Shown: in pieces, positions 29,259-45,176 of the stretch
Numbering within the stretch: the stretch's first letter is position 1
Layout: each line of letters begins with the position of its first letter
DNA from: Burkholderia cepacia GG4
Lineage (GTDB): Bacteria; Pseudomonadota; Gammaproteobacteria; Burkholderiales; Burkholderiaceae
Length of the DNA: 64,000 nucleotides
Direction: 5' to 3'
Assembly (NCBI RefSeq): GCF_000292915.1
Contig: NC_018513.1
Coordinates: forward strand, 124,001 to 188,000
Notes under the pieces: generated by a model
Database searches by the model: none
The model's input: only the letters and a program-made list of their open reading frames with translations
What the model was told of the DNA's origin: nothing
Made by a program: the position numbers and the translations under genes

Positions 29259-29344
29259 CGAGGCCTCAGGCAAGGCGCTTGCGCGCGGGTCAGAACGGCC
29301 ATGTGCCGACCGTCGCGGCCAGCGGCCTGCGAGCGATCCGGTAC

Positions 29345-29605
29345 ATGCCCCTCTGTCCTCGATACCTGAGAGATTGCGCCGCGGCCACAAGCCGGCGAAC
29401 GCGCGCCCCTTCGGTGGGCAGCCTGCCCGCGCTGCATTCGCGCAACGGGCTACTGCCGCTCTCCAGAGTGCGGGGAGTGCGGCCCGCGCAATGCGCGGAC
29501 GGGATTCCCCGACGCGGTCGGTCCTTTTGCCTGAGAGTTTGCGGGTGTGCCCCTTCGGCGGCGCGACCGGCGTTGCTAGCTACGCGGTCACACGCTCTCC
29601 CGACG
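29345..29605 (-). ncRNA. Tandem glycine riboswitch upstream of gcvT
   Basis: Read on the minus strand, two aptamers lie in series. The first has GGGAGAGCGTG near 29594-29601, then CCGAAGGGGCACACC and AAACTCTCAGGCAAAAGGAC. The second has CTCTGGAGAGC near 29458-29468, then CACCGAAGGGGCGC, AATCTCTCAGG and a final AGGACAGAGG. These are the conserved elements of gcvT-type glycine riboswitches. Glycine binding normally switches the cleavage operon on. Boundaries are approximate. Confidence 0.93.
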
Positions 29606-29658
29606 CGTGCGGGCGACTGTACGCGAGCGGGTGGGCATTGTCAATTTGAGCAAAAGAA

Positions 29659-35170: not shown

Positions 35171-35246
35171 GCGCCCGTAGCTCAATGGATAGAGTACTGC
35201 CCTCCGAAGGCAGGGGTTGCTGGTTCGATCCCAGCCGGGCGCGCCA
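35171..35246 (+). tRNA. tRNA-Arg (anticodon CCG)
   Basis: The 76-base cloverleaf has acceptor GCGCCCG pairing with CGGGCGC, anticodon stem CTGCC/GGCAG with loop CTCCGAA (anticodon CCG), T arm GCTGGTTCGATCCCAGC and an encoded CCA end. It reads Arg codon CGG. A less GC-rich gene-free stretch follows. Confidence 0.95.
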
Positions 35247-35593
35247 AGCCTGATCGAGCATTCTTCGTATCGATTTCATTTTTTGATCGTTCATCTCGCG
35301 TGCCTAACCAGGGCAACGTGAGGGCAACGCGCGCCGGTTGGCTCAGCATCGACAGCGAGCGCGTCAGCTATACGGCAGCTTGCGCTGCGCTGCTAGCCCG
35401 TTCGCGAACGATCCAGACGCTTCCGCCGCTTCACTTCAACACAAGCACATTGCTCACGCAGCCACCGGCCGACGCCGGATGCGAAATGGCCGTCACGGGC
35501 TCGTGAATTCTTTCAGAACGCATTCAAATCCTGCCGCTGCATCGGCATTGTCTCGCGCTGTCCCGGTAGATTCGATCGATCGTCGGATCTACC
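35247..35593. other. Gene-free stretch after tRNA-Arg
   Basis: About 350 bp with lower GC than the flanks, including AGGGCAAC twice within 20 bp near 35310. No integrase fragment or second copy of the tRNA 3' end was recognised, so it cannot be called an island border. It leads into the sigma-28-type promoter of the repeat gene. Confidence 0.4.
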
Positions 35594-35620
35594 TAAAGTT
35601 TGTCGCTCCATGGTCGTTAA
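35594..35620 (+). promoter_or_regulatory. Sigma-28 (FliA) type promoter of the giant repeat gene
   Basis: TAAAGTTT, then 11 bases, then GTCGTTAA. The -35 element and spacing equal the flagellar sigma-28 consensus (TAAAGTTT-N11-GCCGATAA), and the -10 matches six of eight bases. It lies about 105 bp before the start of the repeat gene. Confidence 0.75.
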
Positions 35621-35724
35621 TCAGTCGGGTGCAGGATAGGGCCAAATCAAAGTAAAGCGTCGGCTGACGGGGGGCCAGTCTCGGACATGCCGCTTCTGAA
35701 CAACGAACTTGGAAAGGATGAAGC

Positions 35725-38700
35725 ATGACTTCGATCGTAACCGGCATGTCTACGGCGCAAATCGCGGCGTTTACGACGGCTCAGGCGCACGCGCTGACTG
35801 GGACCGACATCAGCGCAATGACGACCGACCAGGTCAAGGCGCTGACTACCGACTCGGTGGCTGCGCTGACCACGTCGGCAGTCGTCAGCCTCAGCACGAC
35901 GGCTGTCGCGATTCTCAGCTCCGACCAGCTCGGCTCGCTGAACACGGCTGACATTGCCGCGCTCAAGGCGAACCAGATTGCCGCACTCACGTCCGATCAA
36001 CTCTCGAAGCTGAGCGCCCCCCAAGCCGGTGCGCTGTCGAGCGCTCAAGTGGCGGCGCTGACGACCAGCCAGGTGCAGAACGGCCTCACGACGGACCAGA
36101 TCCACGCGCTGACGACGGCGCAGGCCGCCGCCTTGTCGACGGCTGACGTCGCGGCGCTGACGACGATGCAAGTCACTGCGCTGACGACGGCCGATGTTGC
36201 GGCGCTGAAGACGAACCAGGTCGCTGCTTTGACGACGACGCAGGTGCAGAACCTGACGACCGACCAGGTCAAGGCGCTGACGACCGCGCAGGCGGCCGCG
36301 TTGACGACGGCGCAAGTGGCGGCGCTGACGACCGATCAGGTGAACGCGCTGACGACGGCGGCGTTCTCGGCGCTCAAACCGACGCAGGTGGCGGCGCTGA
36401 CGACGGCGCAGGTTGCCAACCTGAGCGCGTCACAGGAAGGTGCGCTGACGAGCGCGCAGGTAGCGGCGCTGACGACGAATCAGGTGCAGAACGGCCTGAC
36501 GACCGACCAGGTCAAGGCGCTGACGACGGCGCAGGCCGCGGCGTTGACGACGGCGCAGGTCGCCGCGCTGACGACGGCGCAGTCGAGCGCGCTGACGACG
36601 GCCGATGTGGCCGCGTTGAAAGCGACTCAGATTGCGGCGCTGCGGACGGACCAGGTGCAGAACCTGACGACCGCTCAGGCCGCGGCACTGACGAGCACGC
36701 AAATCGCGGCGCTGACGACGGCGCAGGTGCAGAACGGCCTGTCGACCGATCAGATCCACGGGTTGACGACCGCGCAGGCGTCCGCCATGACGACGGCGCA
36801 GATCGCGGCGCTGAGCACGGACCAGGTGAACGCGCTGACGACGGCCGCATTTGCGGCGCTGAAGCCGACGCAGGTGGCGGCGCTGACGACGACGCAGGTC
36901 GCCAACCTGAGCGCGGCGCAGGAAGGCGCGCTGACGACCGGCCAGGTCGCGGCATTGACGACCGCGCAGGTGAAAAACGGCCTGACGACCGATCAGGTCA
37001 AGGCGCTGACGACCGCGCAAGCTGCGGCGCTGACGGCTGCTGACGTGACGGCGTTGTCCACCACGCAGACGACCGCGCTGACGACGTCCGCCGTGGCGGC
37101 GCTGAAGACGAACCAGATCGTGGCGCTGACGACGGCCCAGGTGCAGAACCTGACGACCGATCAGGTCAAGGCGCTGACGACCGCGCAGGCGCAGTCGTTG
37201 ACGACGGCGCAAGTGTCGGCGCTGACGACGGACCAGGTGAACGCGCTGACGACGGCGGCGTTCGCGGCGCTGAAGCCGACGCAGGTGGCGGCGCTGACAA
37301 CGGCGCAAATTGCCAACCTGAGCGCGGCGCAGGAAGGTGCACTGACGACCTCGCAGGTAGCGGCGCTGACGACGAATCAGGTGCAGAACGGCCTGACGAC
37401 CGACCAGGTCAAGGCGCTGACGACCGCGCAGGCCGCAGCGCTGACGGCCGCGGATGTAACGGCGCTGTCGACGACGCAAGTCACGGCCCTGGCGACGGCG
37501 AACATTGCGGCGCTGAAAACGCCCCAGATCGTCGCGCTGACGACGACCCAGGTGCAGAACCTGACGACCGATCAGGTCAAGGCGCTGACGACCGCGCAGG
37601 CATCGGTGCTGACGACCGATCAGGTCAAGGCGCTGACGACCGATCAGGTGAACGCGCTGACGACGGCCGCATTCGCGGCGCTGAAGCCGACCCAGGTCGC
37701 GGCACTGACGACGGCACAGATCACCAATCTGAGCGCGGCGCAGGAAGGTGCGCTGACGACCGCGCAGGTGGCCGCGTTGACGACGAATCAGGTGCAGAAC
37801 GGCCTGACGACCGATCAGGTCAAGGCGCTGACCACGGCGCAAGCCGCGGCGCTGACCACGGCTGACGTCGCGGCGCTGACGACCGCGCAGGCGGCTGCGC
37901 TGTCGACGGCCGATGCCGCAGCGCTGAAGGGTCTTCAGATCGCAGCGTTGACGACGACGCAGGTGCAGAACCTGACGACCGACCAGGTCAAGGCACTGAC
38001 GACCGCGCAGGTGACGTCGTTGACAACCGACCAGGTCAAGGCGCTGACGACCGATCAGGTGAACGCGCTGACGACGGCCGCATTCGCGGCGCTGAAGCCG
38101 GCGCAGGTGGCAACGCTGACGACGACGCAGATCGCCAACCTGAGCACGGCGCAGGCCGGCGCGCTGACGACCGCGCAAGTGGCCGCGTTGACGACGAATC
38201 AGGTGCAGAACGGCCTGACGACCGACCAGGTCAAGGCGCTGACGACCGCGCAGGCATCGTCGTTGACCACCGGGCAGGTCGCCGCGCTGACGACGGCGCA
38301 GTCGGCTGCGCTGTCGACGGCCGACGTGGCTGCGCTGAAGACGAATCAGGTTGCGGCACTGCGTACGGACCAGTTGCAGAACCTGACGACGGCTCAGGCG
38401 GCAGCATTGAGCTACACGCAGATCGCGTCGCTGACGACGAACCAGGTGCAGAACGGCCTGTCGACCGATCAGGTCAAGGCGCTGACGACGGGGCAGGCAG
38501 CGGCATTGACGGCGGTTGACGTCGCGGCGCTGACGACCGCGCAGGCGTCGGCGCTGACGACGGCCGACGTCGCGGCGCTGAAGGCGACGCAGGTCGCAGC
38601 GTTGACGACGACGCAGGTGCAGAACCTGACGACCGACCAGGTCAAGGCACTGACGACCGCGCAGGTGACGTCGCTGACGACCGATCAGGTCAAGGCGCTG

Positions 38701-39387
38701 ACGACCGATCAGGTGAACGCGCTGACGACGGCCGCATTCGCGGCGCTGAAGCCGACGCAGGTCGCGGCACTGACGACGACGCAGATCGCCAACCTGAGCG
38801 CGGCGCAGGAAGGTGCGCTGACGTCCGCGCAAGTGGCCGCGTTGACGACGAATCAGGTGCAGAACGGCCTGACGACCGACCAGGTCAAGGCGCTGACGAC
38901 CGCGCAGGCGGCCGCGTTGACGACGGCTGACGTCGCCGCGCTGACGACGGCGCAGTCGGCTGCGCTGTCGACGGCTGACGTGGCCGCGCTGAAGACGAAT
39001 CAGGTTGCGGCACTGCGCACGGACCAGCTGCAGAATCTGACGACGGCTCAGGCGGCAGCACTGAGCTACACGCAGATCGCGTCGCTGACGACGAACCAGG
39101 TGCAGAACGGCCTGACGACCGATCAGGTCAAGGCGCTGACGACGGGGCAGGTGGCGGCGCTGACGACGGCTGACCTTGCGGCGCTGACGACGACGCAGAC
39201 CGCGGCGCTGTCCACGGCGTCGATCGTGGCGTTGAAGACGAGTCAGGTGATTGCGCTGACGACGGCCCAGGTGCATAACCTGACGACCGATCAGGTGGCT
39301 GCGTTGACGACGACCCAGGTGCACGCGCTGACGTCGACGCAGGTCGGGGCGCTGACGACCGATCAGATCCAGCAGCTTCACTTCTGA
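35725..39387 (+). CDS. Giant Thr/Ala-rich octapeptide-repeat protein of unknown function
   Basis: The 1220-residue protein is almost entirely a repeat of eight residues, pattern [V/A]xALTTxQ, with about 150 copies. Occasional nine-residue units VQNGLTTDQ shift the register. A landmark block TAAFxALKPxQ starts at 36355, 36841, 37252, 37663, 38074 and 38728, so a higher-order unit of 137 residues (411 bp) is visible. I see no Cys or Trp, no signal peptide, no membrane helix and no RTX repeats. GGAAAGG lies before ATG 35725. The sigma-28-type promoter and the flagellar and glycosyltransferase neighbours suggest a motility-regulon surface or appendage protein, perhaps exported by the flagellar apparatus and O-glycosylated on its TT pairs. 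This is inference. Confidence 0.85.
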   Translation: MTSIVTGMSTAQIAAFTTAQAHALTGTDISAMTTDQVKALTTDSVAALTTSAVVSLSTTAVAILSSDQLGSLNTADIAALKANQIAALTSDQLSKLSAPQAGALSSAQVAALTTSQVQNGLTTDQIHALTTAQAAALSTADVAALTTMQVTALTTADVAALKTNQVAALTTTQVQNLTTDQVKALTTAQAAALTTAQVAALTTDQVNALTTAAFSALKPTQVAALTTAQVANLSASQEGALTSAQVAALTTNQVQNGLTTDQVKALTTAQAAALTTAQVAALTTAQSSALTTADVAALKATQIAALRTDQVQNLTTAQAAALTSTQIAALTTAQVQNGLSTDQIHGLTTAQASAMTTAQIAALSTDQVNALTTAAFAALKPTQVAALTTTQVANLSAAQEGALTTGQVAALTTAQVKNGLTTDQVKALTTAQAAALTAADVTALSTTQTTALTTSAVAALKTNQIVALTTAQVQNLTTDQVKALTTAQAQSLTTAQVSALTTDQVNALTTAAFAALKPTQVAALTTAQIANLSAAQEGALTTSQVAALTTNQVQNGLTTDQVKALTTAQAAALTAADVTALSTTQVTALATANIAALKTPQIVALTTTQVQNLTTDQVKALTTAQASVLTTDQVKALTTDQVNALTTAAFAALKPTQVAALTTAQITNLSAAQEGALTTAQVAALTTNQVQNGLTTDQVKALTTAQAAALTTADVAALTTAQAAALSTADAAALKGLQIAALTTTQVQNLTTDQVKALTTAQVTSLTTDQVKALTTDQVNALTTAAFAALKPAQVATLTTTQIANLSTAQAGALTTAQVAALTTNQVQNGLTTDQVKALTTAQASSLTTGQVAALTTAQSAALSTADVAALKTNQVAALRTDQLQNLTTAQAAALSYTQIASLTTNQVQNGLSTDQVKALTTGQAAALTAVDVAALTTAQASALTTADVAALKATQVAALTTTQVQNLTTDQVKALTTAQVTSLTTDQVKALTTDQVNALTTAAFAALKPTQVAALTTTQIANLSAAQEGALTSAQVAALTTNQVQNGLTTDQVKALTTAQAAALTTADVAALTTAQSAALSTADVAALKTNQVAALRTDQLQNLTTAQAAALSYTQIASLTTNQVQNGLTTDQVKALTTGQVAALTTADLAALTTTQTAALSTASIVALKTSQVIALTTAQVHNLTTDQVAALTTTQVHALTSTQVGALTTDQIQQLHF
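35725..39387 (+). repeat. 24-bp repeat array with a 411-bp higher-order period
   Basis: The DNA of the repeat gene is a degenerate tandem array of about 24 bp per unit (core GCGCTGACGACG). In the middle it is organised into near-identical 411-bp modules (37252, 37663 and 38074 phases). The modules point to expansion by unequal recombination. Confidence 0.85.
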
Positions 39388-39400
39388 TCGATCGCGTTGC

Positions 39401-39425
39401 ATGGCGCCGGGGTTCCCGGCGCCAT
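39401..39425 (+). terminator. Perfect hairpin after the repeat gene
   Basis: ATGGCGCCGGG-gtt-CCCGGCGCCAT is a perfect 11-bp stem 14 bp after the stop codon. No T tract follows, so termination is possible but not certain. Confidence 0.45.
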
Positions 39426-39598
39426 CCCGCCTCACCGGTTTGGGCAAGGCGCGAGTACTGGCCGGTTAAACTGCCGGCCACGCGTGACGTGGCGGCAGCC
39501 GCGCGTCCCGGGCAGGTGGGGCGGCGGCGCGCCGTCGTGCCTGCGCGGGGGCTGGCGGGCAGCCGTCCGGCGGACTGCCGTACCTTACGGTGTTACGT

Positions 39599-41425
39599 AT
39601 GAATGAAGTCATGGTTTCGTCTGAAGAAAATTTTGCTGCCGATCTTCTGCTCGCGTGGCACGGCAAGATCGACATGACAGGTCTCTTCGAGCGCGCGGGC
39701 GCGCTCGAAGCGAGCCGGCAGTTCGAGCTGGCGGCGATCCTTTACCGCACCTGGCTCGAGCGCAATGCCGCGCCGTTCAATCATTTCGTGTACTTCAACC
39801 TCGGCGTCGCGCTGTTCAACGCCAACGACATCGAGGCCGCGAAAAAGGCGCAATACACGGCCATCGAGCTCGCGCCCGATTTCATTCATCCGCATTTCAA
39901 TCTGGGTGTCATGTGCGAGCGCGCCAACGAGCTCGACACGGCGATCGCGGAATGGACGTGGGTCGTGGAGCACGCGTCGGCTGATCATCCCGAGCAACGG
40001 CCGCTGCGGCTGTCCGCGCTCAACAACCTCGGGCGTGTCCATGAAAACCAACGGCGCTACGCCGATGCGCTGGTGTGCCTGACGGAAAGTTTGCGGATGG
40101 AGCCGAACCAGCCGGACGTGCTGCACCACTGGGTATTCCTGCGCGGCAAGCAGTGCGAGTGGCCCGTGTTTGCGCCCGTCGAGGGCGTCGATCCGGACCT
40201 CATGCGGCGGTCGACTTCCGCACTGGCGATGATCAGCCAGTCGGACGATCCGGCGGAGCAATTGTCGGCGGCCCGGCATTACGTCGACACCAAGATCAAT
40301 GTCGACGTGCCCGCATTGTCCGGCAAGAAGGCATACGGTCACGAGAAGATCAGGATCGCGTATCTTTCGTCGGATTTCTGCCTGCATCCCGTTTCGATGC
40401 TCACGGCCGAGCTGTTCGAACTGCACGACCGGCGGCGTTTCGAGGTGTACGGCTATTGCTGGTCGCGCGATGACGGCTCCGCGCTGCGCAAGCGGATCAT
40501 CCAGTCGATGGATCATTTCCATCGCATCGACACGATGAGCGACGAGGCTGCCGCTCAGCTGATCCGCGAACACGAGATCGACATCGTCGTTGACCTGCAC
40601 GGGCAGACGCTCGGCGCACGCACGGACTTGCTTGCCTATCGGCCGGCGCCCATCCAGATCACGTATCTGGGCTTGCCGGCCACGACCGGCCTGCCGTATA
40701 TCGATTTTGTGATCGCCGACCGGTTCCTGATTCCCGAAGCGTACGCGCACTTCTACTCGGAGAAGCCGCTGTACATGCCGGACATTTACCAGGTCAGCGA
40801 TCGCAAGCGGGTCAGTGCGCCGGCGCCCTCGCGCGCAAGCTGCGGCCTGCCGGAAGACGGCTTCGTCTTTTGTTCGTTCAACAACAATTACAAGTTCACG
40901 CCCGAGGTGTTCGGCGCCTGGATGCGGATCCTGCAGCGGGTGCCGGCAAGCGTGCTCTGGCTGCTTGCCGACAATCCGTGGGCCGAAGCCAATCTGCGAA
41001 AGGAAGCGGCCAGGTACGGCATCGACGGCGGACGCCTCGTCTTTGCGTCCCGCGTCTCGCCGGAGAATTATCTTGCCCGGTTTGCGGTCGCGGACCTGTT
41101 CCTCGATTCCTTCCCGTTCAACGCGGGCACGACGGCGAACGACGCGCTCTGGATGGGGCTGCCCGTTCTGACGCTCTCGGGCAAGAGCTTCGCATCGCGG
41201 ATGGCGGGCGCGATGTTGACCGCCGCAGGCATCGAGGAATTGATCACCTACGATCTGCAGGCATACGAGGAGAAGGCGGTGGCGCTCGCGAGTGCGCCGA
41301 ACGAGTGCAGGCGCCTGCGAGAGGTGCTGAACGCCGAGCGCAGGGATGGCGTGTTGTTCGACACGCCGCGATTCGTCAACAACCTCGAGGCGCATTTTTC
41401 GCGTCTCATCGGCGCGCTGGACTGA
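39599..41425 (+). CDS. TPR-containing O-GlcNAc-transferase-like glycosyltransferase (GT41)
   Basis: The protein has about 608 residues. The N-terminal third (about 40-180) has TPR-like helices (FVYFNLGVALFNANDIEAAK, FNLGVMCERANELDTAI). The C-terminal part is a GT41 catalytic domain with RIAYLSSDFCLHPVSML, IDIVVDLHGQTLGAR, FCSFNNNYKFTPEVF and LDSFPFNAGTTANDALW, the hallmark of SPINDLY/OGT-type enzymes. Such proteins glycosylate Ser/Thr, and one is found beside flagellin genes in Burkholderia. Acceptors here may be flagellin and perhaps the adjacent Thr-rich protein. ATG 39599 or ATG 39611 could be the start; neither has a strong ribosome site. Confidence 0.82.
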   Translation: MNEVMVSSEENFAADLLLAWHGKIDMTGLFERAGALEASRQFELAAILYRTWLERNAAPFNHFVYFNLGVALFNANDIEAAKKAQYTAIELAPDFIHPHFNLGVMCERANELDTAIAEWTWVVEHASADHPEQRPLRLSALNNLGRVHENQRRYADALVCLTESLRMEPNQPDVLHHWVFLRGKQCEWPVFAPVEGVDPDLMRRSTSALAMISQSDDPAEQLSAARHYVDTKINVDVPALSGKKAYGHEKIRIAYLSSDFCLHPVSMLTAELFELHDRRRFEVYGYCWSRDDGSALRKRIIQSMDHFHRIDTMSDEAAAQLIREHEIDIVVDLHGQTLGARTDLLAYRPAPIQITYLGLPATTGLPYIDFVIADRFLIPEAYAHFYSEKPLYMPDIYQVSDRKRVSAPAPSRASCGLPEDGFVFCSFNNNYKFTPEVFGAWMRILQRVPASVLWLLADNPWAEANLRKEAARYGIDGGRLVFASRVSPENYLARFAVADLFLDSFPFNAGTTANDALWMGLPVLTLSGKSFASRMAGAMLTAAGIEELITYDLQAYEEKAVALASAPNECRRLREVLNAERRDGVLFDTPRFVNNLEAHFSRLIGALD

Positions 41426-41481
41426 TCGGCGCTCTGGTCGGTCGGCCCCCCGGCAGGCCGACCGCCGGATCGCGCCGCCGG

Positions 41482-42261
41482 TCAGAAGTAGTCGAGATCC
41501 AGCACGATGCCCGCCGAGGCCATCAGCCGTTGGCGGTTCAGGCGAACGTCCGTATTGGGGGCTGGATGCCGCTGGTAGAGCGCGAGCATCGTCGAGGCGA
41601 TCAGATCGTCGCGCGTATTGCCGCGTCGCATGTTCTCCTGCGCGCCGGCCGGGCTCTTGTGAATGACGACGGAGCTGAGCGGGGCATGAACCATTGCGCG
41701 TCCGGAAAGACAAGCGAGCAGGAAGTCCCAGTCTTCGTAAATCTCGAGATCGGTCGCATATCGGACGTGCGCGACGACGTCCTCGCGATAGGCGATGCAG
41801 CTATTCGGCACGCGATTCCGCACGTAGACGCTGTCCGCGTCGACGTCGCCGATGCGCACCGTTTCGATCGAGGTGGTGCGTGGCGGATGTGTCGTGCGAT
41901 CCTCGTAACAGACCTTGAAATCGCAAAACAGGATTTCCGGCTCGTCGGTGCCGATGCTTCGGGCCAGCGCGTCGAGGTGCGTCGGTTCAAGCGTGTCGTC
42001 GTCGTCGAGGAACATGACATAGCGCGATTTGGCGAGCGAGAGTCCGATGTTGCGGCTTTCGGCCGGCCCGGGCGCGCCGCTGCGGATCACGTGGACGTAG
42101 CGCCCGTGCAATGCCGACAGCTCCTCGAATGGCGGCATGTAGGTCGCGCTATCGGAGACGACGATGACGGTGAAGTCCTGCCACGTCTGGTCGATCAGGG
42201 ACTGCAACGCCCGGCGCAGCAGCAGTGGCCGGTCGTGGGTGGCGATGATGACGGTAAACAC
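41482..42261 (-). CDS. Family 2 glycosyltransferase
   Basis: The 259-residue protein has the GT-A start MFTVIIATHDRPLLLRRALQ, the metal-binding acidic motif FLDDDDTLEP and the later YEDWDFLLACLSG segment of GT2 enzymes. It lies at the end of the fliC-fliD-fliT strand, 98 bp after fliT, and ends 56 bp from the convergent OGT-like gene. It probably contributes to flagellin glycan synthesis. This role is inferred from position. Confidence 0.8.
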   Translation of the reverse strand: MFTVIIATHDRPLLLRRALQSLIDQTWQDFTVIVVSDSATYMPPFEELSALHGRYVHVIRSGAPGPAESRNIGLSLAKSRYVMFLDDDDTLEPTHLDALARSIGTDEPEILFCDFKVCYEDRTTHPPRTTSIETVRIGDVDADSVYVRNRVPNSCIAYREDVVAHVRYATDLEIYEDWDFLLACLSGRAMVHAPLSSVVIHKSPAGAQENMRRGNTRDDLIASTMLALYQRHPAPNTDVRLNRQRLMASAGIVLDLDYF

Positions 42262-42359: not shown

Positions 42360-42665
42360 TTAGAAACCCGCGATCCGCTGATATTGCAGCGCTGCTTCCG
42401 TGCGGCCGATAGCCGCCTGAAACTCGGCCTGCAACTCCCGGCGCGTCGTTTGCGCGTCCGCCATCACGGCCGCGTCGATCTCCTCGATGCGCTTCAGGAT
42501 CGCCAGCGCGTCGGGCGATTGCGGGGCGGCCAGGGACATCAGCAGCGGCGAGCGCTGTTCGACGAGGCGCGCCGCGCCCGGCCAGTCGGCCATCGATGCC
42601 GCATGTTCGATTGCCTGCGTGAGTGACCACACGCGCTCCAGCAGAGTGGTCGAGTCCATCGTCAT
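42360..42665 (-). CDS. fliT: Flagellar chaperone FliT-like protein
   Basis: The 101-residue all-helical protein (TTLLERVWSLTQAIEHAAS, ILKRIEEIDAAVMADAQTT) fits FliT in size and position directly after fliD. FliT binds the filament cap FliD and, in enteric bacteria, represses FlhDC. ATG 42665 is chosen because GGGAGAAAGC precedes it. No fliS gene lies in this cluster. Confidence 0.75.
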   Translation of the reverse strand: MTMDSTTLLERVWSLTQAIEHAASMADWPGAARLVEQRSPLLMSLAAPQSPDALAILKRIEEIDAAVMADAQTTRRELQAEFQAAIGRTEAALQYQRIAGF

Positions 42666-42705: not shown

Positions 42706-44160
42706 CTATGCCTTGTTCGTGGCCAGCGCGCCAGCGCTGTTGGTACCGCCGAACAGTTGCGTCAGGTATTGCGAATTGTTTTGCATCTTTGCCATCAGCG
42801 TATTGAGCGCGGTGAATTGCGTATTGTACTGATCGGTGAGCTGGCTGGCGTAAGTCTGCAGCGTCGTGGCCTGCGTTTTCGCATCGGCGAGATCCTGGTT
42901 CAACGCCGTGACGCGCGTGTCGATGATGCCGCCCGTCTGCAGGAATGTCGTGATGTTGTTGTTGAGCGTTGCGCCCACGCCGTTGGTCGCGTTGAACGCA
43001 GTCGCTACGGATGACGGATTGTTCGCCAGCGCCGACGACAGGGCCGCGCTGTCGACGCTGAGCGTGCCGTCCGGCTGAAGGTTGAGGCCGATCGCGCTCA
43101 GGCTGACCGTGCTGCCGCCGCTCGTTACGCCCTGGGCGACCTTCGTCGACAGCGTGTTGACGATCGAATTCAGCATCGAATCGCCGATCAGCGGGCCACC
43201 CTGGCTACCTGCGGCTGCGCTTGAATTGAAGCTCGACAGCGACGATGCGGTGTTGACGAACGCGTTGTACGCGGAGACGAACGCGTTGATCGTATTGGTG
43301 GCGGTGGTGTTGTCCGGCGAGACCGAGAGCGTTTGGGTCGTCTTTGCCGACGAAGCAGACAGGTTGATCGTCACGCCCGTAATCGCGCCCGTGATGGTGT
43401 TGCTCGCGCTAACCACGTTGGTGCCGTCGATCGAGAGCTGCGCGTCCTGCGCGGTGACCGTCTCGTTGTAGTTGCTTGTCGCCGCGCCCGTGTTATCGAC
43501 GGTTGCCAGCGCAGCCAGTCCGTCCGTCGAATTGGTCGACACCTTGATGGTGTTTGCCGCGCCCGTGACGTTGGACGTCAGCACGAGGTGCGAGCCATCC
43601 GTACCCGTGACGACGGTGGCGGTCACGCCCGGATTGCCGCTTCCCGTGTTGATTGCATTTGCGATGTCGGCGAGCGTATTGGTGCCGGACTTGATCGCGA
43701 CAGTCATCGGCGTGCCGCTGCCGAGCTGGATCGTCAGATTGCCGGTGCCGACCGGGTTCGTCGATGGAATGCCCGTGATCGACGAAAGCTTTTGCGCCGT
43801 CGCCACCTGCGTCACTGCGATCGAGTAGCTGCCCGCGACCGCCCCCGTCGACGTCGTGGCCGTGAGGCCGCTGCCGCTCGCGGATGCCGTGAATTTTGAC
43901 AGCGCCGAGCCGTCGGTGAGGCCGGAAAGTGCGCTTTGCAACGACGAAAGCGACGACTTGAGCGAACCGATCGCTGACAGCGTTGTGTTGTCGAGCGTTT
44001 GCCGATTGGTGTTCTGGGCCGTTTGTGCAGACGTCTTCGCTGCGACCAGCGCGGACACGAGCGACGAGACGTCCGTGTTCGAATTCGTCACGCCGCTGAT
44101 GATCGATTGGGCGGCTGCCGCCAGTGCGCTGTTCGCCGATGTGGTGGTAGTCGTCGACAT
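42706..44160 (-). CDS. fliD: Flagellar filament capping protein FliD
   Basis: The 484-residue protein has the FliD layout: a Ser/Thr-rich disordered N-terminus, FliD_N (GVTNSNTDVSSLVSALVAAK), a variable centre, and FliD_C (LQTYASQLTDQYNTQFTALN, LMAKMQNNSQYLTQLFG). It caps the growing filament and folds flagellin. ATG 44160 (MSTTTTTS) has GGAG six bases upstream. It lies downstream of fliC behind a terminator, so it may need its own promoter or read-through. Confidence 0.93.
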   Translation of the reverse strand: MSTTTTTSANSALAAAAQSIISGVTNSNTDVSSLVSALVAAKTSAQTAQNTNRQTLDNTTLSAIGSLKSSLSSLQSALSGLTDGSALSKFTASASGSGLTATTSTGAVAGSYSIAVTQVATAQKLSSITGIPSTNPVGTGNLTIQLGSGTPMTVAIKSGTNTLADIANAINTGSGNPGVTATVVTGTDGSHLVLTSNVTGAANTIKVSTNSTDGLAALATVDNTGAATSNYNETVTAQDAQLSIDGTNVVSASNTITGAITGVTINLSASSAKTTQTLSVSPDNTTATNTINAFVSAYNAFVNTASSLSSFNSSAAAGSQGGPLIGDSMLNSIVNTLSTKVAQGVTSGGSTVSLSAIGLNLQPDGTLSVDSAALSSALANNPSSVATAFNATNGVGATLNNNITTFLQTGGIIDTRVTALNQDLADAKTQATTLQTYASQLTDQYNTQFTALNTLMAKMQNNSQYLTQLFGGTNSAGALATNKA

Positions 44161-44227
44161 GTAGGACTCCATTCGATGAGATTAGTCCTGCGCGAAGCTG
44201 GGGCAGGGCGACGTCGTGCGCGAAGCA

Positions 44228-44345: not shown

Positions 44346-45176
44346 TTAGCCCAGGAGCTTCAGCACTTGCTGCGGCATCGAGTTCGCTTGTGCGAGGACC
44401 GAAATGCCGGCTTGCTGCAGCACCTGTGCCTTCGACAGGTTGGCGGTCTCCTGCGCGAAGTTTGCGTCGGTGATCTGCGCGCTTGCTGCGTTCAGGTTCG
44501 TCGATTGCGCGGTGGTCTGCGAGATCGCTGCCTGATAGATGTTGATGTCGGAACCGAGCTGAGCTTGCGCGGTGTTGACGGTGCCGAGCGCAGTGTCGAT
44601 CGTGGTCATCATCGTTTGCGCGTTGGCGACGCTCGTCACGCTGCCGCCGGTCAGGTTGAGCGTCGTCGTATCGTACTTGCCGCTCAGGTCCAGCGACAGT
44701 TGCTGGCCAGCCTTTTCACCGATCTGGAAGGTCAGCGGCGAGCCTGCGCTGTTCGCGCTACCGTCGAGCAGGTTGATGCCGTTGAACGTCGTTTGGCTCG
44801 CGATACGGCCGATTTCGGTGATACGCGCTTGCACTTCGGTGTCGAGGTTGCCTGCAGCGGCTGCGCCGATCGACGAATCGGATGCCTGAACAGCGAGCTG
44901 GCGGATACGCTGCAAGTCGGCGGTGATTGCCGAGAGGCCGCTCGATGCGGTCTGAGCCATCGACACGGCGTTGTTCGCGTTCGACACGCCCTGCGTGTAT
45001 GCGTTGATGGACGCTTGCATCGTCGTCGAGATCGCGAGGCCTGCCGCATCATCTGCCGCGGAGTTGATGCGCTTGCCCGACGACAGGCGGTTGATCGCTT
45101 GCGACAGCGCGTTCTGCGTCGACGAAAGGTTCGTTTGAGCGGTCTGTGAATAAATGTTGGTATTGATGTTCAGCAT
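44346..45176 (-). CDS. fliC: Flagellin, short form
   Basis: The 276-residue protein has both conserved flagellin ends: MLNINTNIYSQTAQTNLSS and NRLSSGKRINSAADDAAGLA at the N-terminus, and QITDANFAQETANLSKAQVL with LAQANSMPQQVLKLLG at the C-terminus. The central surface domains are almost absent, with only about 50 residues between the two D1 halves, so it is much shorter than the roughly 380-residue flagellins common in Burkholderia. The filament would expose mainly D1. A sigma-28-like promoter lies upstream. Confidence 0.95.
   Translation of the reverse strand: MLNINTNIYSQTAQTNLSSTQNALSQAINRLSSGKRINSAADDAAGLAISTTMQASINAYTQGVSNANNAVSMAQTASSGLSAITADLQRIRQLAVQASDSSIGAAAAGNLDTEVQARITEIGRIASQTTFNGINLLDGSANSAGSPLTFQIGEKAGQQLSLDLSGKYDTTTLNLTGGSVTSVANAQTMMTTIDTALGTVNTAQAQLGSDINIYQAAISQTTAQSTNLNAASAQITDANFAQETANLSKAQVLQQAGISVLAQANSMPQQVLKLLG

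Follow-up and report, generated by a model that had tools for sequence, protein, structure and literature searches.

In a 64,000-nucleotide stretch of the Burkholderia cepacia GG4 genome (the window), the gene for a long protein of ALTTAQ-type octapeptide repeats is followed by a gene for a glycosyltransferase of family GT41 with tetratricopeptide repeats (TPR), beside a row of flagellar genes. This repeat-GT41 system is real and recurrent. Judged from the sequences, control of the repeat gene by sigma-28 (FliA) and its partnership with the GT41 gene are well supported, and it is on balance probable that the repeat protein forms a solenoid outside the cell, glycosylated by the GT41, exported and produced at the same stage as the flagella. 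The window covers positions 124001-188000 of contig C1 in a genome (G000) of 6.47 Mb and two contigs.

Pairing of the repeat and GT41 genes

The window enzyme matches PF13844 with an E-value of 2.9e-84 (283.7 bits, cut-off 25), and TPR families also score above cut-off. Its catalytic region aligns over most of its length with those of two GT41 enzymes, XcOGT (XCC0866) and human OGT, neither of which is known to have a repeat protein as its neighbour; the His of 'DFCLHP' and the Lys of 'NNNYKF' align with XcOGT in columns that we take to be the catalytic residues of OGT-type enzymes. The HMW1/HMW1C system likewise links a GT41-type enzyme to an exported surface protein, but there the modification is N-glucosylation, and the NCBIfam N-glucosyltransferase model scores far below its cut-off on the window enzyme (25.7 bits against 1000).

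The survey of co-occurrence across Burkholderia proposed in the initial annotation could draw on only two of 65 genus genomes with the repeat family, PF20080 (G000 and G015); the family was detected in 15 of 399 genomes of the order (E 1e-6) and 28 of 398 of the phylum (E 1e-3). In both G000 and G015 the sole GT41 gene at E 1e-20 adjoins the repeat gene downstream, and GT41 is the next gene to the repeat gene in Sapientia, Shinella and a Riflebacteria metagenome-assembled genome. With a GT41 gene within about 13 kb on the same contig in 11 of the 15 repeat-bearing order genomes (G000, G506, G573, G575, G621, G628, G713, G716, G740, G741 and G797), the neighbour first noticed in the window is a conserved partner and not a chance one. 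In the remaining four (G542, G608, G634 and G682) the repeat gene is interrupted by a contig end; the GT41 gene of G608 lies at the end of another contig, beside a fragment of the shared C-terminal domain described below. GT41 genes (E 1e-60) are present in 13 of the 15 repeat genomes and 103 of the 384 others (p 4e-6), and flagellin genes in 15 of 15 and 256 of 384 (p 0.003), p-values that overstate the significance because the enriched sets share descent. The top four matches to the window enzyme among the 399 order genomes are its own and those of G573, G608 and G506, all repeat genomes. In a reverse test, close GT41s were sought in 239 class genomes regardless of repeats. One new genome (G1046) was found; the blind prediction of a repeat gene held there, and its contig carries repeat, ABC, HlyD and GT41 genes in one row. 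No GT41 was in view at G414b, G455, G741b, G245 or the second repeat gene of G628.

In a tree of 51 catalytic domains, 14 paired GT41s and two unpaired ones (G001 and G057) stand apart from 35 GT41s of other Burkholderia, with those of G000 and G015 in separate sub-branches; the tree was quick, with long branches flagged, and excludes the f47 GT41s of L136-L138 and the GT41s of L130-L134 and L142. The G000 and G015 pairs occupy the same site beside fliT, and three other Burkholderia examined (L068, L069 and L070) bear three or four GT41s of the other branch beside fliT-fliD-fliC. Because the two pairs belong to different sub-branches and share one site, we infer two arrivals at one hotspot. 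The pair is also kept at loci far from fliT. It is found in several families and, beyond the phylum, in Riflebacteria, and either gene may come first.

Loci from 16 of the 28 PF20080-positive phylum genomes were covered, the others being G120, G196, G252, G253, G261, G295, G322 and G338, together with G105, G193, G201 and G209, whose loci fell outside the neighbourhood survey. At the GC-rich loci L068-L070, L092, L132 and L133, genes were identified via tblastn or hidden Markov model (HMM) matches on all open reading frames (ORFs). Both unpaired enzymes of the paired branch are 1258 aa long (G057, L066 8088-11864; G001, L067 7831-11607), with no repeat gene in view. Beside the G716 pair lie DegT aminotransferase and GDP-mannose dehydratase-like sugar genes (L104 7073-9498), a hint that the sugar added may differ between species.

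Locus layout and the sigma-28-like promoter

The features of the window locus are as follows.

35594-35620, plus strand: sigma-28 (FliA)-like promoter, TAAAGTTT-N11-GTCGTTAA, 131 nt upstream of the repeat-gene start codon
35725-39387, plus strand: ALTTAQ-repeat protein (PF20080 match), 1220 aa, about 150 octads, repeats up to the C-terminus
39402-39424, no strand assigned: perfect 10-bp inverted repeat directly 3' of the repeat gene, without a T run
39590-41425, plus strand: TPR and GT41 (OGT-type) glycosyltransferase, 611 aa from GTG (PF13844 and TPR matches)
41482-42261, minus strand: GT2 glycosyltransferase, last of the fliC-fliD-fliT row
42360-42665, minus strand: fliT-like gene, 101 aa, called on size, place and 43-68% identity to ORFs of three other genomes
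42706-44172, minus strand: fliD
44346-45176, minus strand: fliC flagellin, 276 aa
45268-45295, minus strand: FliA-like site upstream of fliC, 15/15 positions, spacer 12

Profile matches and this layout confirm the arrangement given in the initial annotation, an octapeptide-repeat protein beside a TPR-GT41 enzyme, then GT2-fliT-fliD-fliC. The two gene rows are convergent, and flhD, flhC, motA and motB begin about 7 kb past fliC. The repeat gene is separated from the GT41 start by 203 bp; the ATG at 39599 is a likely GT41 start (608 aa). A scan of 35200-41900 found no sigma-70-like site, and the inverted repeat was not among the terminator-like elements of that scan.

The near-consensus FliA promoter reported earlier was upheld: it fits 15 of 15 scored positions, and TAAAGTTT-N11-GTCGTTAA has this one exact match in the genome, while a reversed control pattern has none. 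Within the window, 15 positions are reached solely upstream of the repeat gene and of fliC (45295, minus strand); the third-best site, with 14, lies upstream of motA (53225, plus strand). In 20 first-order random sequences no site reached 15, and those reaching 14 averaged 0.05 per 64 kb.

The window site is thus far above chance, and it recurs upstream of the repeat gene in many relatives. A FliA-like site (at least 13 of 15 positions, within 400 nt) precedes 12 of 23 repeat genes, representing nine of 14 families or groups, versus 6 of 516 other called genes at the same loci (Fisher 2e-14), a background set of 516 that includes some wrong gene calls. Five of these six background genes are flagellar (fliC of the window, fliC of G015, a Riflebacteria flagellin gene, motA and flgM), and the sixth is the GT41 gene of G621, adjoining a repeat gene. 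The site lies 85-199 nt from the start codon in the beta relatives that have it and 325-338 nt in four of six f47 genes. In all, 29 starts were scored; L084 and L098, with only 150 and 19 nt of DNA upstream, were excluded, which left 27. Four loci presumed to be alphaproteobacterial were set apart (Shinella on the strength of its name, f44 and f51 by inference), their inclusion giving 12 of 27. Among eight further repeat-gene starts, four (G621, G628, G634 and G1046) have a site of at least 13. These data suggest that the repeat gene depends on FliA.

The looser pattern TAAAGTTT-N11/12-GYCGTTAA has only one other exact match in the genome, outside the window (G000:C2:1516012-1516038, plus strand). 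A tRNA gene (35171-35243, plus strand) lies about 480 bp upstream of the repeat gene and is a possible insertion site of the pair.

Sequence and predicted fold of the repeat protein

PF20080 matches the repeat protein with an E-value of 1.7e-248 (802 bits, curated cut-off 26.4) in 51 stretches. Octads of consensus L-T-T-x-Q-V-A-A run end to end, with a ninth residue (QNG) every 137 or 81 residues; the protein has a pI of 4.8 and contains neither Cys nor Trp. About 150 Thr-Thr pairs had been claimed, but the count is 110 overlapping pairs, about 150 being the number of octads. The absence of a Sec signal was borne out: the N-terminus has no Sec-like hydrophobic stretch, its highest Kyte-Doolittle mean over 12 residues being 1.2.

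Single-sequence folding of residues 279-688 agrees with the octapeptide solenoid named in the initial annotation. In the best model (predicted local distance difference test score, pLDDT, 83.3; predicted template-modelling score 0.62) most octads each form a helix 5-6 residues long, consistent with a predicted solenoid of short helices; the second model reached a pLDDT of 77 and the other three 42-47. Matches to solved structures were weak, too weak to support kinship to mesothelin or armadillo folds. Side matches to a luciferase helical bundle, CAAP1 and NDK (Pfam), and to PRTRC_C and a lanthipeptide leader (NCBIfam, above cut-offs), had no stretch passing alone and were taken as low-complexity echoes.

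The initial annotation knew of no function for this repeat family. That part stands, since none was found in the papers searched, nor a GT41 partner or sigma-28 control; the family itself, however, is already in Pfam, where PF20080 comprises the same repeat and gives the repeat alone. No description of the repeat-GT41 pair was found in the openly licensed literature searched. Relatives range from 971 to more than 5000 residues. Calpain, G8, RTX or Ig-like domains accompany ALTTAQ repeats in other proteins; a calpain-type protease or G8 domain is present in many of these (P0049, P0051, P0053, P0111 and others), which represent a further use of the repeat.

Octad position 3 as the putative acceptor

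Thr-Thr pairs alone were rejected as evidence of glycosylation: a helix cap would account for Ser or Thr at octad position 2, and these residues are common there whether or not an ALTTAQ protein is GT41-linked, so position 3 was used instead. Of 22 GT41-linked proteins (including that of G608, whose GT41 sits on a second contig), 21 have Ser or Thr at position 3 of at least 66% of their octads, versus 2 of 37 controls (22 calpain and 15 G8 proteins, chosen by Pfam label irrespective of neighbourhood from the best 120 of 361 matches). The Mann-Whitney p-value of 2e-10 is too small given shared descent. Neither group includes the f47 proteins of G153 (0.64), G169 (0.51) and G129 (0.69 and 0.38) or the proteins of G414b (0.21) and G455 (0.26), with no GT41 in view. 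A supposed GT41 match in G165 (L111) was TPR only and was dropped; this locus had scored 0.88 at position 3. The composition of the octads suggests that the repeat protein may be glycosylated by the neighbouring GT41, likeliest at position 3.

Export

The repeat gene has ABC and HlyD genes nearby, sometimes with TolC, in G435, G506, G608, G621, G713, G741, G1046 and four f47 genomes. The NCBIfam type I PrtD model scores above cut-off in G435, G713 and G741 and the HlyD model in G741; Pfam ABC, HlyD or outer-membrane efflux families were matched at two f47 loci and in G608, and exporter calls at the remaining loci rest on our own HMMs. Ten proteins in eight genomes (G435, G506, G573, G628, G713, G716, G741 and G1046) share a C-terminal domain of 235-306 aa that, where scanned, matched little in Pfam, with a weak EF-hand match at most.

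The window protein lacks this domain of its type I relatives, only 3 residues following the last repeat. The proteins of the window, G015, Riflebacteria, Shinella and G575 all have repeats to the end, and their genes lie close to flagellar genes without a visible exporter. We nevertheless rejected the argument that absence of the C-terminal domain implies flagellar export: the f47 proteins and that of G621 end in repeats yet adjoin ABC/HlyD genes.

There are no ABC-HlyD genes among the called window genes, the calls having been made partly by N-terminal sequence. The genome has eight ABC matches at E 1e-30; none of the six regions scanned scored above the type I cut-off, and one is MsbA. Another scanned region, at a distance of 127 kb from the repeat locus, encodes a C39 peptidase domain (Pfam) and an adjoining HlyD-like ORF. 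C39-type exporters cleave double-glycine leaders, and no such leader was seen in the window protein; this ABC and HlyD-like pair could still be its exporter. G015 carries a type I-like ABC gene (52% identity). Export of the window protein via the flagellar apparatus is possible but no more than that; the lack of a Sec-like signal is compatible with this route and too little to establish it.

Proposed mechanism and alternatives

In the account we favour, the repeat and GT41 genes would form a dedicated pair. Sigma-28 would activate the repeat gene at a late stage of flagellar assembly, alongside flagellin, as the recurrent promoter footprint suggests, and the product would fold into a long solenoid with one short helix per octad. 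In the cytoplasm the neighbouring TPR-GT41 would put sugars on Thr or Ser, most likely at octad position 3. Relatives with ABC-HlyD(-TolC) genes would export the product by a type I system; the least certain step is that in this Burkholderia, which would perhaps rely on its flagellar export apparatus. Once outside the cell, the product would be a surface or flagellum-associated glycoprotein.

Several observations weigh against this account, besides the shared descent of the enriched sets. No FliA-like site of at least 13 precedes the four f47 repeat genes of genus g121. None was detectable in G015, which alone shares the pair with the window genome within the genus and where the best score of 11 was matched by 58 of 100 shuffles, nor in Riflebacteria, G506, G740, G741b or at the second repeat gene of G628. 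The paired protein of G414 is low at position 3 (0.37), and those of G741b (0.74) and G245 (0.70) are high without a GT41 in view. Flagellar genes are in view at 8 of 22 GT41-linked loci (two of the 8 on a second contig ending in repeat); the other 14 have none, many having a type I exporter instead. The earlier proposal of a late-flagellar component holds in part: the sigma-28 site recurs, but homologues often lie away from flagellar genes, an observation that the initial annotation had named as counting against it.

A narrower form of our explanation, in which a secreted adhesin or matrix protein shares only its timing with motility and is not physically linked to the flagellum, is the strongest competitor, although we think it somewhat improbable. 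The type I exporter genes, the C-terminal domain common to ten proteins and the occurrence of the repeats with calpain, G8, RTX or Ig-like domains would suit such a protein; the repeated linkage to flagellin, fliD or fliA genes counts against it.

It is also conceivable, but unlikely, that the GT41 acts on flagellin, as FlmG does, and that the repeat protein is a co-regulated neighbour rather than its substrate. Caulobacter FlmG, likened here by description, also joins TPR to a glycosyltransferase domain, is tied to flagella and modifies all six flagellins (PMC7591256); the window pair adjoins fliT, at which three other Burkholderia carry several GT41s. The constant partner of window-type GT41s, however, is the repeat protein: flagellin genes adjoin the window enzyme but are not in view beside most paired GT41s, and GT41 stays with the repeat gene without flagellin in view, for example in G435, Sapientia, G573, G608, G741 and G1046. 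The separation of paired GT41s from the 35 other Burkholderia enzymes in the tree also speaks against this alternative.

That glycosylation islands simply carry both genes along, with no joint function, appears improbable. Pairs of different sub-branches at one fliT site in G000 and G015 would fit an insertion hotspot, but the pair is intact far from that site, across families, in Riflebacteria and in either order. Least probable of all is a role inside the cell, in the cytoplasm or periplasm, as a scaffold or ruler in building the flagellum, for which the missing Sec-like signal and C-terminal domain and the regular rod-like model could be cited, but which sits poorly with exporter genes beside many relatives and a length range unlike that of a ruler.

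Related systems and magnetotactic relatives

Serine-rich repeat glycoproteins with GtfA/GtfB and accessory Sec resemble the exported solenoid favoured here in combining a repeat protein, a linked cytoplasmic glycosyltransferase and dedicated export; they differ in repeat, enzyme family and export route and are not known to be under sigma-28 control.

MamA scored above cut-off in all six f47 genomes tested, all of genus g108, which are therefore taken to be magnetotactic; f47 may correspond to 'Magnetococcia'. Among f47 genomes the repeat gene is preceded by dedicated ABC-HlyD genes in four and by a FliA-like site at four of six genes. In magnetotactic strain MO-1, flagella are bundled by sevens together with 24 fibrils, and the sheath around them consists of a glycoprotein of more than 350 kDa (PMC7175107); microfibrils are also described in PMC7010408. 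MO-1 Sap is a very large glycoprotein of the flagellar apparatus, as the repeat protein may be, a comparison by description (PMC7175107; PMC5088516), and strain IT-1 is stated to have no genes similar to Sap (PMC5088516). By this analogy the repeat protein is a candidate part of the magnetotactic flagellar sheath or fibrils. More speculatively, and with considerable doubt, ALTTAQ-GT41 pairs might encode glycoprotein fibres or sheaths of the flagellum that have gone unrecognised as a class: helical solenoids, glycosylated on Thr and timed by sigma-28, that run beside the filament or envelop it. The fibrils of magnetotactic cocci could be among them; if so, the finding would bear on the composition of those inter-flagellar fibrils.

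The exported-solenoid account offers a testable function for a Pfam repeat lacking one in the papers searched and a candidate natural substrate for OGT-type bacterial enzymes. It predicts a very large glycoprotein made in step with flagella in many bacteria, and its elements (octad position 3 as acceptor, GT41 as writer, sigma-28 as switch) are separately testable.

Elsewhere in the window, two glycine riboswitch aptamers in tandem (29343-29612, minus strand) lie upstream of glycine-cleavage genes, an ordinary arrangement.

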